Program-made: the position numbers and the translations under genes
Part shown: in pieces, positions 6,154 through 58,869 of the stretch
Layout of the letters: every line of letters starts with the position of its first letter
Position numbering within the stretch: the stretch's first letter is position 1
Origin: Oscillospiraceae bacterium
Lineage (GTDB): Bacteria; Bacillota; Clostridia; Oscillospirales; Ruminococcaceae
Assembly: GCA_021769525.1 (NCBI GenBank)
Contig: JAETSQ010000001.1
Span: forward strand, 1-64,000
Direction: 5' to 3'
DNA length: 64,000 bases
The notes under the pieces: generated by a model
The model's input: only the letters and a program-made list of their open reading frames with translations
Told to the model about the DNA's origin: nothing
The model's database searches: none

Positions 6154-6255
6154 CGCTGCCCTGCGAAAAGTTCGCCATTCTTCTTTTTGCTTCTTTTTCT
6201 TCTTTTGCAAGAAGAAAAAGAAGGCAGGGGCCGGGGCGGCAGCCCCGGAATCGGG
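6154..6255 (+). repeat. Dispersed intergenic two-hairpin element, copy R1
   Basis: CTTCTTTTTCTTCTT-TTGC-AAGAAGAAAAAGAAG followed by CCGGGGC-GGCA-GCCCCGG; related to copies at 7897 and 27421. Confidence 0.85.
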
Positions 6256-6333: not shown

Positions 6334-7791
6334 ATGAGCTTTGATAAAGTCCGCACCCGCTTCGCCCCCAGCCCCACCGGCTATATGCACGTTGGGAACC
6401 TGCGCACCGCCCTGTACGCCTATCTCACCGCCAAGGCCCAGGACGGTACCTTCATCCTGCGCATCGAAGACACCGACCAGGAGCGGTATGTGGAGGGAGC
6501 GGTGGACATCATCTACAACACCCTGCGGGAGACCGGCCTTCTGTGGGACGAGGGCCCGGATGTGGGCGGCCCGGTGGGCCCCTATGTCCAGAGCCAGCGG
6601 ATGGGGATGTTCAAGGACTACGCCCTTCAGCTGGTGGAGAAGGGGGCGGCCTACTACTGCTTCTGCGATAAGGACCGGCTGGAGGAGGTCCGGGCGGTGC
6701 AGCAGGCTTCCGGCATGGCCCCCAAGTACGACGGCCACTGCCGCCACCTCACCCCGGAGGAGATCCGGGAGAAGCTGGACGCCGGCGTGCCCTACGTCAT
6801 CCGCCAGAAGGTCCCCACCGAGGGCACCGTCACCTTCCACGACCAGATCTTCGGGGACATCACCGTGGACTGCGCCGACCTGGACGACCAGGTGCTCATC
6901 AAGGCGGACGGGATGCCCACCTATAACTTCGCCAACGTGGTGGATGACCACACCATGGGCATCACCCATGTCATCCGGGGCAACGAGTACCTCTCCTCCA
7001 CCCCCAAGTACAACCTCCTGTATGAGGCCTTCGGCTGGGAGGTCCCGGTGTACATCCACTGCCCGCCGGTGATGAAGGACGCCACCCACAAGCTCAGCAA
7101 GCGCAACGGCGACGCCTCCTACGAGGACCTCATCGCCAAGGGGTACCTCAAGGACGCCGTCCTCAATTACATCGCCCTGCTGGGATGGAGCCCCAAGGGG
7201 GAGCGGGAGATCTTCACCCTGCCGGAGCTGGTGCGGGAGTGGGACCCCGCCGGTATCTCCAAATCTCCCGCCATCTTCGACGGCCAGAAGCTGCGGTACA
7301 TCAACGGCGAGTACATCCGGGCCCTTGCCCCGGAGCAGTTCTACGAAAAGGCCCTCCCCTGGATGCGCCAGACGGTGAAGAGCGAGACCGCCGACCTCCG
7401 GGCCCTGGCGGGGGTGCTCCAGGCCCGGTGCGAGGTCCTCTCCGACATCCCGGAGCAGGTGGATTTCATCGATGCCGTGCCGGAGTACGACCTCTCCCTC
7501 TACACCAATAAGAAGATGAAGACCACCCCGGAGACCAGCCTTGCGGCCCTCCGGGAGACGCTGCCCATCCTGGAGGCCCTGCCGGACTTCACCGCCGGGG
7601 CCATCCACGAGGCCCTCTTTGCGCGCATCGCCCAGCTGGAGGTGAAGAACGGCTGGCTGCTCTTCCCCCTGCGGGTGGCGGTGAGCGGCAAGCAGTTCAC
7701 CCCCGGCGGCGGCATCGAGCTCTGCGCCATCCTGGGCAAGGAGGAATCCCTCCGCCGTGTCCGGGCCGCCATCCAAAAGCTGGAGGGCTGA
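6334..7791 (+). CDS. gltX: Glutamyl-tRNA synthetase
   Basis: [31 protein letters not shown]; full length. Confidence 0.97.
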
Positions 7792-7804: not shown

Positions 7805-7850
7805 AAAAAAAGGAAGGACCTGGCAAAATGCCGGGTCCTTCCTTTTTGCA
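7805..7850 (+). terminator. Intrinsic terminator downstream of gltX
   Basis: aaaaaaaggaaggacctggcaaaatgccgggtccttcctttttg inverted repeat with T-run. Confidence 0.85.
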
Positions 7851-7896
7851 TGAAATGCCTTTGGTCCAAGAGGGCTGTTTTAGGGGGTGGCGAACC

Positions 7897-8015
7897 GCGC
7901 AGATTTTGGGATAGCCTGCTGCGTTGTAAATACTTTGGGCGTTCTTCTTTTTGCTTCTTTTTCTTCTTTCGCAAGAAGAAAAAGAAGGCAGGGCTGGGCG
8001 GCAGCCCAGATTGGC
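7897..8015 (+). repeat. Dispersed intergenic two-hairpin element, copy R2
   Basis: CTTCTTTTTCTTCTT-TCGC-AAGAAGAAAAAGAAG followed by CTGGGC-GGCA-GCCCAG; shared flanks gcgcagatttt...tgtaaatactttgg and attggc with R3. Confidence 0.9.
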
Positions 8016-8029
8016 ATAAGAGGAGGGGG

Positions 8030-9382
8030 CTATTTTACCACCAGGAGCCGGCTTTCGTTGGGGGCCAGGGTGAGATGCAGCAGGCCGTCCGCCGCCGGGA
8101 CCGCCTCCCCGCTCACCAGGTCGGTGCAGCAGCCGGACCCCGCCGGCAGGCGGATGGAGACAGGGGCCGCCTTTTCGTCGTTGTTCACCGCCACCAGCAC
8201 CCCCGCTTCCCCCAGGAGCCGCGCAAAGGCGTACTGGCGGTTGGTCAGCAGCAGCTCCTGGTAACGGCCGTGGATCAGAGCGGGCTGCTCCCTGCGGATG
8301 CGCCCCAGGGTCCGGATCCAGTCCAAAAGCGCCGGGTCCTCCGGGGCCTCCAGCGCCCTTTGCAGGTCCACCGCCGGGCGGAGGGGGTCGTCGTTCCCTC
8401 CTTCCTTCCGCCCCCGGATGCCCCACTCGGAGCCGTAGTAGAGGGAGGGGATGCCGGGAAGGGTGAAGAGAAGGGTGTGCACCGGGTAGATATGCCCCGG
8501 CACCCGAAGCTTCTCGGCGATGCGGTCCACATCGTGGTTATCCACAAAGGAGTAGAGCCGCATCCCCCGGTAGATGCCGCCGTTCTGGTCGAACTGACGG
8601 CGGATGGTGTGGGCGATCTCGAAGTAGTTGTGGTCGTTGTGGCCGGAATACAGGCCCTTGTGCAGCTCGTAGTTGGTGACGCTGTCCAGTTTGCCGCCGC
8701 CGATGTACCGGCTGTAGTCCCCATGGATCACCTCGCCCATGAGCCAGAAATCCGCCTTCTTTTCGTCCACGCACCGGCGCAGCTCCTGCAAGAAGGAGGG
8801 CTCCAGGCAGTCGGCGCAGTCCAGCCGGATGCCGTCGATGTCGAACCGGTCGATCCAGAAGCGGACCACCTCCAGGATGTAGTCCCGCACCCCCCGCTCC
8901 CGGTAGTTCAGGTTTGCCAGCTCAAAGCAGTTGTGCCAGGCCTCGTACCCGAATCCGTCGTTGTAGGGGGAGTTCCAATCAAAATGGACGCCCTTGTACC
9001 AGGAGCAGTAGGGGGAGCTCTGCCGGTTCTGCTGAATATCCCGGAAGGCGAAAAATTCCCGGCCTGTGTGGTTGAAGACGCCGTCCACCACCACCCGGAT
9101 CCCCAGGCGGTGGGCCTCCCCCACAAAATGCGCCAGGTCCTCGTTATCCCCCAGGCGGCGGTCCACCAGCCGGTAGTCCCTGGTGTCATAGCCGTGGGAG
9201 GTGGACTCAAACAGCGGCCCGATATAGACCGCCGTGCAGCCCAGGGAGGCGATGTGGGGCAGCCACCCCTCCAGCTCCCCGAAGCGGTGGGTGATCTCCG
9301 CCCCTTTGTTCCGTCTGGGGGCCCCGGTCATGCCGATGGGGTACATATGGTAAAAAACCGCTTCTTCAAACCACTTTCCCAT
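8030..9382 (-). CDS. GH13 alpha-amylase family glycoside hydrolase
   Basis: VVVDGVFNHTG, DGIRLDCADCLE, MGEVIHG, FVDNHDVDR. Confidence 0.95.
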   Translation of the reverse strand: MGKWFEEAVFYHMYPIGMTGAPRRNKGAEITHRFGELEGWLPHIASLGCTAVYIGPLFESTSHGYDTRDYRLVDRRLGDNEDLAHFVGEAHRLGIRVVVDGVFNHTGREFFAFRDIQQNRQSSPYCSWYKGVHFDWNSPYNDGFGYEAWHNCFELANLNYRERGVRDYILEVVRFWIDRFDIDGIRLDCADCLEPSFLQELRRCVDEKKADFWLMGEVIHGDYSRYIGGGKLDSVTNYELHKGLYSGHNDHNYFEIAHTIRRQFDQNGGIYRGMRLYSFVDNHDVDRIAEKLRVPGHIYPVHTLLFTLPGIPSLYYGSEWGIRGRKEGGNDDPLRPAVDLQRALEAPEDPALLDWIRTLGRIRREQPALIHGRYQELLLTNRQYAFARLLGEAGVLVAVNNDEKAAPVSIRLPAGSGCCTDLVSGEAVPAADGLLHLTLAPNESRLLVVK

Positions 9383-12178: not shown

Positions 12179-12233
12179 GGATTTGACCTCCAGGGCAGAA
12201 TTTTGTCACCCCTAGTTTAACACAAAGCGGGGG

Positions 12234-13586
12234 TTAATACAAGGGTATCTCCGGATTTGGGGGATACCGCCGCAGGAGGCCCGGCAGCTCCCGGAAGTAG
12301 ACCCAGATGAGCAGCAGGTCGGCGGCGATCCAGGCGGCGGGGTTGGCCAGGCAGACGGCCAGGTACTGGAGGGGCTCCACCAGGCAGAAGGCCACCGCCC
12401 ACCGGGCGGCCAGCTCAAAGACCCCGGCTGCCATGGCGGGCATCCCGAAGCCCAGCCCCTGGATGGAGTTGCGCAGCACCAGCAGCAGCCCAAGAGTGGG
12501 GAAGAAGAAGCTGTTCACCGCCAGGAAGCGGGCGGAGAGGGCCACCATCTCCTCCACCCCCTCCCCCGTGAGGAAGAGCCGGGAGAGGGGCGCCCCCAGG
12601 GCTACCGAGGCCCCCGTGGCGAAGAGGCAGTAGAGGAGGCTGGCCCCCAGGCCGGCCCGGAGCCCCGCCCGGACCCGGTCGATGCGCTCGGCCCCCAGGT
12701 TCTGGCCGCAGTAGGTGGCCATGGTGATGCCCATCGTGTCCAGAGGGCTCACCAGAAGGTTCTGCACCTTGTTCCCGGCGGTGACGGCGGCCACCACCCC
12801 GCTCCCCAGGGCGTTCACCGCCGCCTGGATGATGATAGTGCCTACCGCGGTGATGGAAAACTGGAGGGCCATGGGGAGCCCCATAAACAGGAGCTGGCGC
12901 AGCTCCGGCGCCCCAGGCCGCCAGTCCTCCCGCTCCGGCCGCAGGAGGGGGACCCGGCGGGCGATGTACAGAAGGCACAGCAGCCCGGAGATCCCCTGGG
13001 AAAGGACGGTGGCCCAGGCGGCTCCCGCCACCCCCATCCCAAAGCAGAGGATAAAGACCAGGTCCAGCACGATGTTCAGCAGAGCCGCGGCGGTGAGGAA
13101 GAAAAGGGGGGTGCGGCTGTCCCCCAGAGCCCGGAGGATGCCGGAAAGGAGATTATAGAGCATGGTGGCGGGGATGCCCCCGAAGATGATGACAATATAG
13201 AGGTAGGCGTCGGAGAAGATGTCCGCCGGGGTGTCCATGAGGGTGAGGATGGCGGGGGTGGAAAGAACGGTAACGGTGGTGAGGAACAGGGCGATCCCCG
13301 CCGAAAGGAGGACCGCCCCCGCCGCCGAGCGGCGCATCCGCCGGTAGTCCCCGGCGCCGAAGTGCTGGGCCACCGGGATGGAAAAGCCGCTGCACACCCC
13401 GGTGACGAACCCCAGCACCAGAAAGCTGAGGGAGCCGGTGGAGCCCACCCCGGCCAGGGCGGTGACCCCCACGAACCGCCCCACGATGAGGGTATCCGCC
13501 ATGTTGTAGAGCTGCTGGAACAGGTTCCCCAGCACCAGGGGCCCGCAAAAAAGAAGGATCACCCGTAAGGGATTCCCTCTTGTCAT
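12234..13586 (-). CDS. MATE family efflux transporter (start ambiguous: upstream TTG or ATG 13586)
   Basis: MTRGNPLRVILLFCGPLVLGNLFQQLYNMADTLIVGRFVG; 12-TM MATE pattern. Confidence 0.93.
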   Translation of the reverse strand: MTRGNPLRVILLFCGPLVLGNLFQQLYNMADTLIVGRFVGVTALAGVGSTGSLSFLVLGFVTGVCSGFSIPVAQHFGAGDYRRMRRSAAGAVLLSAGIALFLTTVTVLSTPAILTLMDTPADIFSDAYLYIVIIFGGIPATMLYNLLSGILRALGDSRTPLFFLTAAALLNIVLDLVFILCFGMGVAGAAWATVLSQGISGLLCLLYIARRVPLLRPEREDWRPGAPELRQLLFMGLPMALQFSITAVGTIIIQAAVNALGSGVVAAVTAGNKVQNLLVSPLDTMGITMATYCGQNLGAERIDRVRAGLRAGLGASLLYCLFATGASVALGAPLSRLFLTGEGVEEMVALSARFLAVNSFFFPTLGLLLVLRNSIQGLGFGMPAMAAGVFELAARWAVAFCLVEPLQYLAVCLANPAAWIAADLLLIWVYFRELPGLLRRYPPNPEIPLY

Positions 13587-27306: not shown

Positions 27307-27420
27307 GGTTTAGGACGGCCTCCTTTTTTCCGGATTTTTGGTTCCACCTGATTATAGCCTGTTTGGAGATAGGGTGCAAGGGGCCGGGGAGCGTGGGGAG
27401 TGTCCCAACGAGGAGTTAAA

Positions 27421-27540
27421 GCCAATCTGGGCTGCCGCCCAGCCCCGCCTTCTTTTTCTTTTCACGGGAAAAGAAAAAGAAGCAAAAAGAAAAGCGGCCA
27501 AAGTATTTACAGCGTAGTGAATCGACTTAAAATCTGCGCA
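27421..27540 (-). repeat. Dispersed intergenic two-hairpin element, copy R3 (inverted)
   Basis: Reverse complement reads CTTCTTTTTCTTTTC-CCGT-GAAAAGAAAAAGAAG then CTGGGC-GGCA-GCCCAG. Confidence 0.9.
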
Positions 27541-27562
27541 ATTTGGACACTTCCGGGAGAGT

Positions 27563-35814: not shown

Positions 35815-36006
35815 CCTGCGGGGGGAACCCCTCCGTCAGCTACGCTCAGCCCTAACGGGCCGCTTCGCGTCCCTTCGGGCACGTGGGCTACGCCCAACCT
35901 CCCCTTTCAGGGGAGGCTCTGGCGGGGCGCAAAGTTATCCTTTCTGCCAAGGGCTCCCCTGAAAGGGGAGCTGGCATTTCCCGAAGGGAAATGTCTGAGG
36001 GGTTCT
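35815..36006 (+). repeat. Intergenic hairpin-module mosaic repeat, member P1
   Basis: ctaacgggccgcttcgcgtcccttcgggcacgtgggctacgcccaacctcccctttcaggggaggctctggcgg...ggctcccctgaaaggggagctggcatttcccgaagggaaatgtctgagggg; near-identical to P2. Confidence 0.92.
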
Positions 36007-40686: not shown

Positions 40687-40881
40687 CCTGCGGGGGAACC
40701 CCTCCACCGCCTCCGGCGGCCAGCCCTAACGGGCCGCTTCGCGTCCCTTCGGGCACATGGGCTACGCCCACCCTCCCCTTTCAGGGGAGGCTCTGGCGGA
40801 GCGCAAAGTTATCAGTTCTGCCAAGGGCTCCCCTGAAAGGGGAGCTGGCATTTCCTGAAGGGAAATGTCTGAGGGGTTTTC
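40687..40881 (+). repeat. Intergenic hairpin-module mosaic repeat, member P2
   Basis: Near-identical over ~190 bp to 35815-36006. Confidence 0.92.
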
Positions 40882-46619: not shown

Positions 46620-46806
46620 CCTCCCGATCGTTCAGTTCTAAACAAAAAAGCTCCTTCCAACGCACCGTGGAAAGAGCGTGACCGGAAAGTCCGGCCTCCC
46701 TTGGGAGGCGGGCTTTGTATCGCAACACGTCAATTCCTCGGCAGGCGGTTGGCACCATTATGCCCCCAAAAGACGGGGACACCTGCTGTCTTTGGATGAA
46801 CAGCTC
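46620..46806 (-). ncRNA. Ribosomal protein L10 leader
   Basis: Minus strand CAGCAGGTG...CCTGCCGAGGA core motif, followed by attenuator-like GCTCTTTCCA...TGGAAGGAGCTTTTTT upstream of rplJ. Confidence 0.85.
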
Positions 46807-46810
46807 CTAT

Positions 46811-46839
46811 ATTATACGGAAAAGGGGACGGAAAGTCAA
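46811..46839 (-). promoter_or_regulatory. rplJ promoter
   Basis: Minus strand TTGACT-17 nt-TATAAT. Confidence 0.75.
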
Positions 46840-54330: not shown

Positions 54331-54526
54331 TTGTCGAAACTCCCTCAGTCAGCCTGCAGCTGACAGCTCCCTCTGGGAGGGAGCCTCCAGCCTGTCGCCT
54401 CCGCCAGGGCCTCCCCTGAAAGGGGAGGTTGGGCGTAGCCCACGTTCCCGACCGCAGGGAGGGATGAGCGAAGCGAGGCGGAGGGGTTCCCCCGCGGGGC
54501 CAAGCCTCCCTCGGCGAGGGAGGCTT
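54331..54526 (-). repeat. Intergenic hairpin-module mosaic repeat, member P3 (inverted vs P1/P2)
   Basis: cctcccctgaaaggggaggttgggcgtagcccacgttcccgaccgcagggagggatgagcgaagcgaggcggaggggttcccccgc. Confidence 0.88.
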
Positions 54527-58755: not shown

Positions 58756-58832
58756 GTGCGGCTGCTCCCTCCGCCTCGCTTTGCCCATCCCTCCCTACGG
58801 TCGGGAAGGGACGCGAAGCGGCCTGTTAGTGG
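58756..58832 (+). repeat. Intergenic hairpin-module mosaic repeat, member P5 (rearranged)
   Basis: cctccgcctcgctttgcccatccctccctacggtcgggaagggacgcgaagcggcctgttagtgg. Confidence 0.7.
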
Positions 58833-58869
58833 TAACCCCCCGGATCCGCCAACAGCAGGTTTGAACTCT

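Follow-up and report, generated by a model that had tools for sequence, protein, structure and literature searches.

What kind of element is R2, a copy of a dispersed hairpin sequence lying between two genes, and what holds its sequence together? An initial annotation of the window (the whole 64,000-nt stretch analysed here) had described it as a discrete unit of about 120 nt, and had noted that R2 and an inverted copy at 27421 share the same landmarks. Both copies do carry these landmarks, and their arms are 88% complementary over 97 nt. The unit is also dispersed, since R2 as a BLASTN query finds about 40 separate places in the window genome (2.04 Mb, 46 contigs), and a pattern describing its core has 100 matches there when the reversed pattern has none. 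The proposed length does not hold, as the complete unit is about 160 nt long and ends in terminal inverted repeats. We consider it probable (roughly 0.6), from sequence comparison, that R2 represents a truncated non-autonomous MITE whose core is an independent structural element kept by selection for a triple-helix fold (Table 1).

The gene to the left of R2 is gltX (6334-7791, confirmed by Pfam PF00749 and PF19269); downstream of it, a hairpin with a T run occupies 7810-7847. R2 lies beyond this hairpin and ahead of a convergent amylase-family gene (8030-9382, minus strand), whose stop codon (8030-8032) is 43 nt from the R2 core and 15 nt from the end of the ATTGGC motif. None of the congeners whose DNA downstream of gltX was examined has the element there, so that R2 does not belong to the end of the gltX transcript; the annotation had also held that it is not simply the terminator of that gene. 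Copy R1 sits between a NUDIX-like gene (assigned by eye) and gltX. The annotation had recognised no named family for the element; Rfam likewise gives no match to R2 at the gathering score in the window, and a search of ten loci at a lax threshold gave only sub-gathering matches that we judged to be chance. The Rfam search of the window places a ribosomal protein L10 leader at 46635-46813 on the minus strand (50.2 bits, above its gathering score).

Table 1. Positions of R2, its parts and the other copies in the window.
Feature	Position	Strand	Basis
R2, copy of the ~160-nt mobile unit, truncated at its 3' end	7883-8015	+	sequence, BLASTN
R2 left terminal inverted repeat, degenerate, GGGGGTGGCGAAC (consensus GGGAGTG[G/T]CCAAA)	7883-7895	+	sequence
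R2 5' stem, CGCAG (7898-7902) / CTGCG (7919-7923)	7898-7923	+	sequence; DNA fold
R2 Y1, putative third strand, TTCTTCTTTTT, exact mirror of Y2	7942-7952	+	sequence
R2 G linker, single base, near-invariant between genomes	7953	+	comparison of loci
R2 basal stem, 5' side, CTTC (partner 7984-7987)	7954-7957	+	sequence, folding
R2 Y2, TTTTTCTTCTT, Watson-Crick partner of R	7958-7968	+	sequence, RNA/DNA folding
R2 loop, TCGC	7969-7972	+	sequence
R2 R, purine strand, AAGAAGAAAAA	7973-7983	+	sequence
R2 basal stem, 3' side, GAAG	7984-7987	+	sequence
R2 GC hairpin, CTGGGC-GGCA-GCCCAG	7994-8009	+	sequence
R2 tail motif, ATTGGC	8010-8015	+	sequence; common to the copy at 27421
R1, further copy (core 6178-6223, GC hairpin 6232-6247)	6178-6247	+	BLASTN, sequence
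R3, full copy (159 nt) bearing the terminal inverted repeats at both ends (core 27449-27494, GC hairpin 27427-27442)	27396-27554	-	sequence

Sixteen copies from the window genome and a congener (G002) are complete units of 147-163 nt, bounded by the 13-bp ends GGGAGTG[G/T]CCAAA and TTTGG[C/A]CACTCCC. Both ends were found on 16-17 units, the left end on 28 of 89 copies and the right end, which is absent from R2, on 23 of 89. Aligning the flanks for target-site duplications, as the annotation had proposed, revealed them: flanking 8-mers agree at six or more of the eight positions in six of 17 units and at all eight in four of these (GTTTTTTC, CTGGGCAA, TTGGAAGA and CTCTAAAA), compared with a mean of 0.57 and a maximum of 4 matching units in 5000 permutations. 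Several further units have a duplication offset by one base, so that the target duplication is 8-9 bp long. Terminal inverted repeats combined with target duplications indicate that the copies in this genus were moved by transposition; judging by these ends, the family in the window genus is a MITE and R2 one of its truncated copies. As to an autonomous parent, no paired ends around a transposase were found among the matches listed, and the paired ends in congeners enclose, among the same matches, only the short unit. The family is also mosaic, given that an alternative 5' half ('...GTGCCTGGAGTCTT...') substitutes for the usual one in some copies and that some loci join an inverted variant core to the usual core. 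Composites such as those at L007, L024, L025 and L036 pair a variant core, whose stem is CTTCTTTTTCTCAC / GTGAGAAAAAGAAG, with the usual one, the two being inverted about a common middle. Many loci from the contig scan belong to Angelakisella sp. RACS_027 and share sequence with G002, so that Angelakisella is probably the genus of the window. A second family of dispersed repeats, with CCTCCCCTTTCAGGGGAGG and GCTTCGCGTCCC motifs, occurs in the window at 35830-36004, 40704-40878, 54399-54485 and 58767-58840, in direct and inverted copies, and its units are also found beside triplex cores elsewhere in the genome (L159, L219).

A pyrimidine run precedes the long A/T stem of the annotation; what that description missed is a mirror repeat, and a covariation of three strands that extends far outside the genus. 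The stem is part of a Y1-G-stem-Y2-loop-R block in which Y1 mirrors Y2 exactly and R is complementary to Y2. In R2 the order is Y1, G, CTTC, Y2, TCGC, R and GAAG. On its sequence, this layout is the design of an intramolecular pyrimidine-motif triple helix with Y1 parallel to R. R3 bears the TTTTTCTTTTC variant in all three strands (Y2 TTTTTCTTTTC, Y1 CTTTTCTTTTT, R GAAAAGAAAAA), so that two triads differ from those of R2 and all six partner bases are consistent, and in L022 and L027 a different triad is altered in all three strands. The 1-nt linker is G in 205 of 207 cases, a count in which duplicate loci are still included. Among 295 elements there are 61 Y2 sequences and 40 different 5' strands of the basal stem, which is thus variable yet paired, and the stem of the GC hairpin also varies between copies with compensating changes. 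RNA and DNA folding programs recover only the hairpins. We infer from the three-strand pattern that a triple helix forms in the core; points against it are that triads of the C.G-C type require protonation and that the linker forces a tight crossing over the basal stem. Similar GGTTACTTTTT hairpins are presumably found in Pseudomonas as well.

One strand of the core would fold into a hairpin whose major groove could accept Y1 as a third strand, through T.A-T and C.G-C triads, and the core would be retained by selection on this fold. The triple helix would be a compact fold of a single strand that works in cis at gene borders. As with REP hairpins, to which we draw an analogy, the fold was most likely recognised or needed in dispersal, and may have been tolerated or co-opted at gene ends. 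The next most likely role would be one in RNA, either in 3'-end protection or in the end of transcription.

Outside the genus the core recurs in other Oscillospirales and, sporadically, in other phyla. Of 396 genomes from the order, 16 match a single exact pattern; the figures are 3 of 200 for the phylum and, for the phylum of a Deltaproteobacterium, 1 of 198, the query genome itself. These counts are lower limits because the pattern covers only some Y2 sequences. Single or few copies appear in Gemmatimonadota (13), Bacteroides (4) and others, and R2 has no match in plasmid and phage collections. In four genomes with contiguous DNA the element abuts coding sequence, gene positions being those of a home-made gene caller. 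From the right end of the hairpin to the stop codon of a minus-strand gene the median distance is 0 nt in genomes G120 (17 cases) and G304 (11 cases), 2 nt in G458 (25 cases) and 12 nt in G460 (6 cases). For plus-strand genes on the right, the median distances to the start are 11, 15.5, 99 and 28.5 nt, respectively. The left side is mostly 60-900 nt from a gene, and only one of 102 elements was called within a gene. Since the neighbouring gene can run in either direction, one RNA strand fails to explain this positional rule. Exact abutment to stop codons raises the question of how such repeats insert or persist. G120 and G304 are about 90% identical, and at several sites an element of one is missing or replaced in the other, which indicates turnover outside the genus of the window too; terminal repeats were not recognised in these two genomes. 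At one site where G120 has a triplex unit, G304 has another repeat with the ends TTTACAA...TTGTAAA (L246, ~12231-12358). Several loci of G383 (L141, L156, L167, L196-L202) have two tandem triplex hairpins behind a GC-rich hairpin. Elements also occur at tRNA genes: one adjoins the CCA end of a tRNA (L183), and in G094 three near-identical cores (L140, L155, L166) come right after a tRNA 3' end, copies that were probably duplicated together with the tRNA.

An element at gene ends could work in RNA, where a plus-strand triple helix and hairpin would protect or terminate transcripts in the manner of ENE/MALAT1 or telomerase-type triplexes. The telomerase RNA pseudoknot triplex has the same Y1-Y2-R order and likewise a parallel Y1, and a GC-rich hairpin often stands ahead of Y1 in other genomes. 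The precedent of plants, in which a retrotransposon ENE triple helix protects the RNA of the element (PMC12501189), also speaks for such a role. Wobble pairs would be expected to reveal the strand that is used, and there are 9 in the plus sense versus 3 in the minus sense, but this excess is not significant (p=0.15). GNRA loops point to the other strand (16 of 111 in the minus sense versus 2 in the plus sense), a comparison that is confounded by loop composition. The right-hand gene lies in either direction, so that neither RNA strand regularly carries the transcript of the adjacent gene, and we regard an RNA role as unlikely.

A second alternative is that the family is a plain MITE or REP-like long-hairpin repeat and that the mirror strand simply follows from the low complexity of the pyrimidine sequence, devoid of structural meaning. 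The terminal repeats and target duplications agree with this, and part of the match is easy to obtain, as permuted low-complexity pyrimidine tracts already reach a mirror identity of about 0.7 from composition alone. Because our search patterns themselves contained part of the mirror, the comparison was made on hairpins that no pattern had selected. A mirror of 7 or longer is present in 45 of the 57 such pyrimidine-arm hairpins whose stem reaches 11 or more. In a set of 32 (records with Y2 not starting with TTTTTCT, which are not phylogenetically independent) the mirror identity is 0.953, with 27 exact cases, and the direct-repeat identity 0.676, whereas permutation of the same set yields 0.705 (sd 0.024, maximum 0.786 of 1000). 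With a register of t=5 (a 5-bp basal stem) applied to all hairpins there is no excess (0.742 vs 0.733), probably because most copies do not follow this register. Where DNA is contiguous, the mirror strand accompanies 92 of 104 pyrimidine-arm hairpins of four genomes (G120 26/27, G304 15/18, G458 35/42, G460 16/17), 10 of 19 in G383, where it is full-length in only 3 of 19, 7 of 8 in G271 and none of 3 in Lawsonibacter G456. The stretches of G383, G271 and part of G458, G304 and G120 were picked for containing matches, and those of G460, G456 and the other G120 DNA came from contig starts, at most 20 kb of each. Shuffled three times, the G458 DNA contains no pyrimidine-arm hairpins. Most pyrimidine-arm hairpins have the mirror even at 62% GC, and some mirrors are 13-14 nt long in mixed C/T sequence, so that the plain-repeat explanation seems highly improbable to us. 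Slippage and template switching yield direct and inverted repeats. To our knowledge neither gives rise to a mirror copy, which makes mutation alone a poor account and selection on a Hoogsteen partner the simplest reading.

The least probable explanation, that ordinary terminators of neighbouring genes have spread and the A/T block is just a pyrimidine tract, can point to the minus strand of R1 and R2, in which the GC hairpin and the TGCCTTCTTT after it together resemble a terminator, and to the frequent abutment of the right end to stop codons in other genomes, but the GC hairpin is absent from those genomes while the mirror block is kept, elements also lie just upstream of start codons, gltX has a terminator of its own, and no reason is offered for an exact mirror of Y2. 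The annotation had argued that R2 is not simply the gltX terminator. On the plus strand no U run directly follows the GC hairpin of R2. The minus strand, terminator-like with its C/T-rich tail after the hairpin, is partly in conflict with the annotation; some copies may therefore double as terminators.

The putative triple-helix core may have a wider significance. We suggest tentatively, at somewhat less than even odds, that cores of this type are natural intramolecular triple-helix elements of a class that has so far gone undescribed. Such a class would have up to 14 in-register triads and a fixed single-G crossing, a density of about 40-90 per Mb in several Oscillospirales genomes, sporadic members in other phyla and a location at the edges of coding sequences, and would be under selection for the triple helix itself. 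Triple helices are rarely backed by comparative sequence evidence, and here many independent copies show three-strand covariation, so that the use of a triple helix in bacteria, and the strand that forms it, could be tested with short synthetic oligonucleotides.

We found no description of the R2 element in the literature, and several known systems share parts of its organisation. RNA major-groove triple helices (telomerase, MALAT1/ENE) have U.A-U triads and a short crossing linker, and the telomerase RNA pseudoknot shares the Y1-Y2-R order; the R2 family differs from them in its up to 14 proposed consecutive triads and in lacking both a poly(A) strand and a pseudoknot stem that encloses the triads. 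MITEs with 8-9-bp target duplications are similarly short and non-coding, with terminal inverted repeats, but the R2 family has no autonomous partner among the matches listed, and its triplex core occurs elsewhere without these ends. REP/BIME sequences, which are associated with RAYT (TnpA-REP), are also extragenic hairpins of species-specific sequence and mosaic units, in tens to a hundred copies and often beside stop codons; here there is an additional mirror strand, a different foot sequence and no consistent Y1 transposase. The link to RAYT/TnpA-REP that the annotation suggested had to be abandoned, as a search for PF01797 (Y1, IS200-like transposase) in 37 genomes gave no consistent association: the domain has no match in G120 (37 copies of the element, 98% completeness) or G271, and is present in genomes that lack the element. 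Among described systems, the intrastrand-triplex (PIT/TM-ECO) repeat comes closest. Intrastrand triplex motifs, including A/T-rich ones, have been described and counted across bacteria, and TM-ECO (BoxC, PIT) in detail; A TM-ECO triplex was observed in vitro, footprinting in vivo gave no support for a stable one, and the loci of TM-ECO are unstable (Holder et al. 2015, PMC4666352). The general motif (PIT/ITxF) is defined by three consecutive blocks able to form at least 8 triads, with loops of 1-6 nt (PMC4666352), and R2, with 11 potential triads and loops of 4 (TCGC) and 5 (GCTTC) nt, agrees with this definition by its sequence. Both kinds consist of a single-strand Y/R/Y or Y/R/R block in many near-identical extragenic copies, and both are patchy among close relatives. 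R2 departs from the TM-ECO (BoxC) consensus CCCTCNCCC N3-6 GGGNGAGGG N3 GGGNGAGGG in being A/T-rich and in having GCTTC between Y1 and Y2. TM-ECO is G/C-rich and of the purine motif, with a second loop of 3 nt, whereas the R2 family has an A/T-rich block whose second loop consists of one G and a self-complementary stem of 4-5 bp, set within a larger unit and located at the edges of genes.
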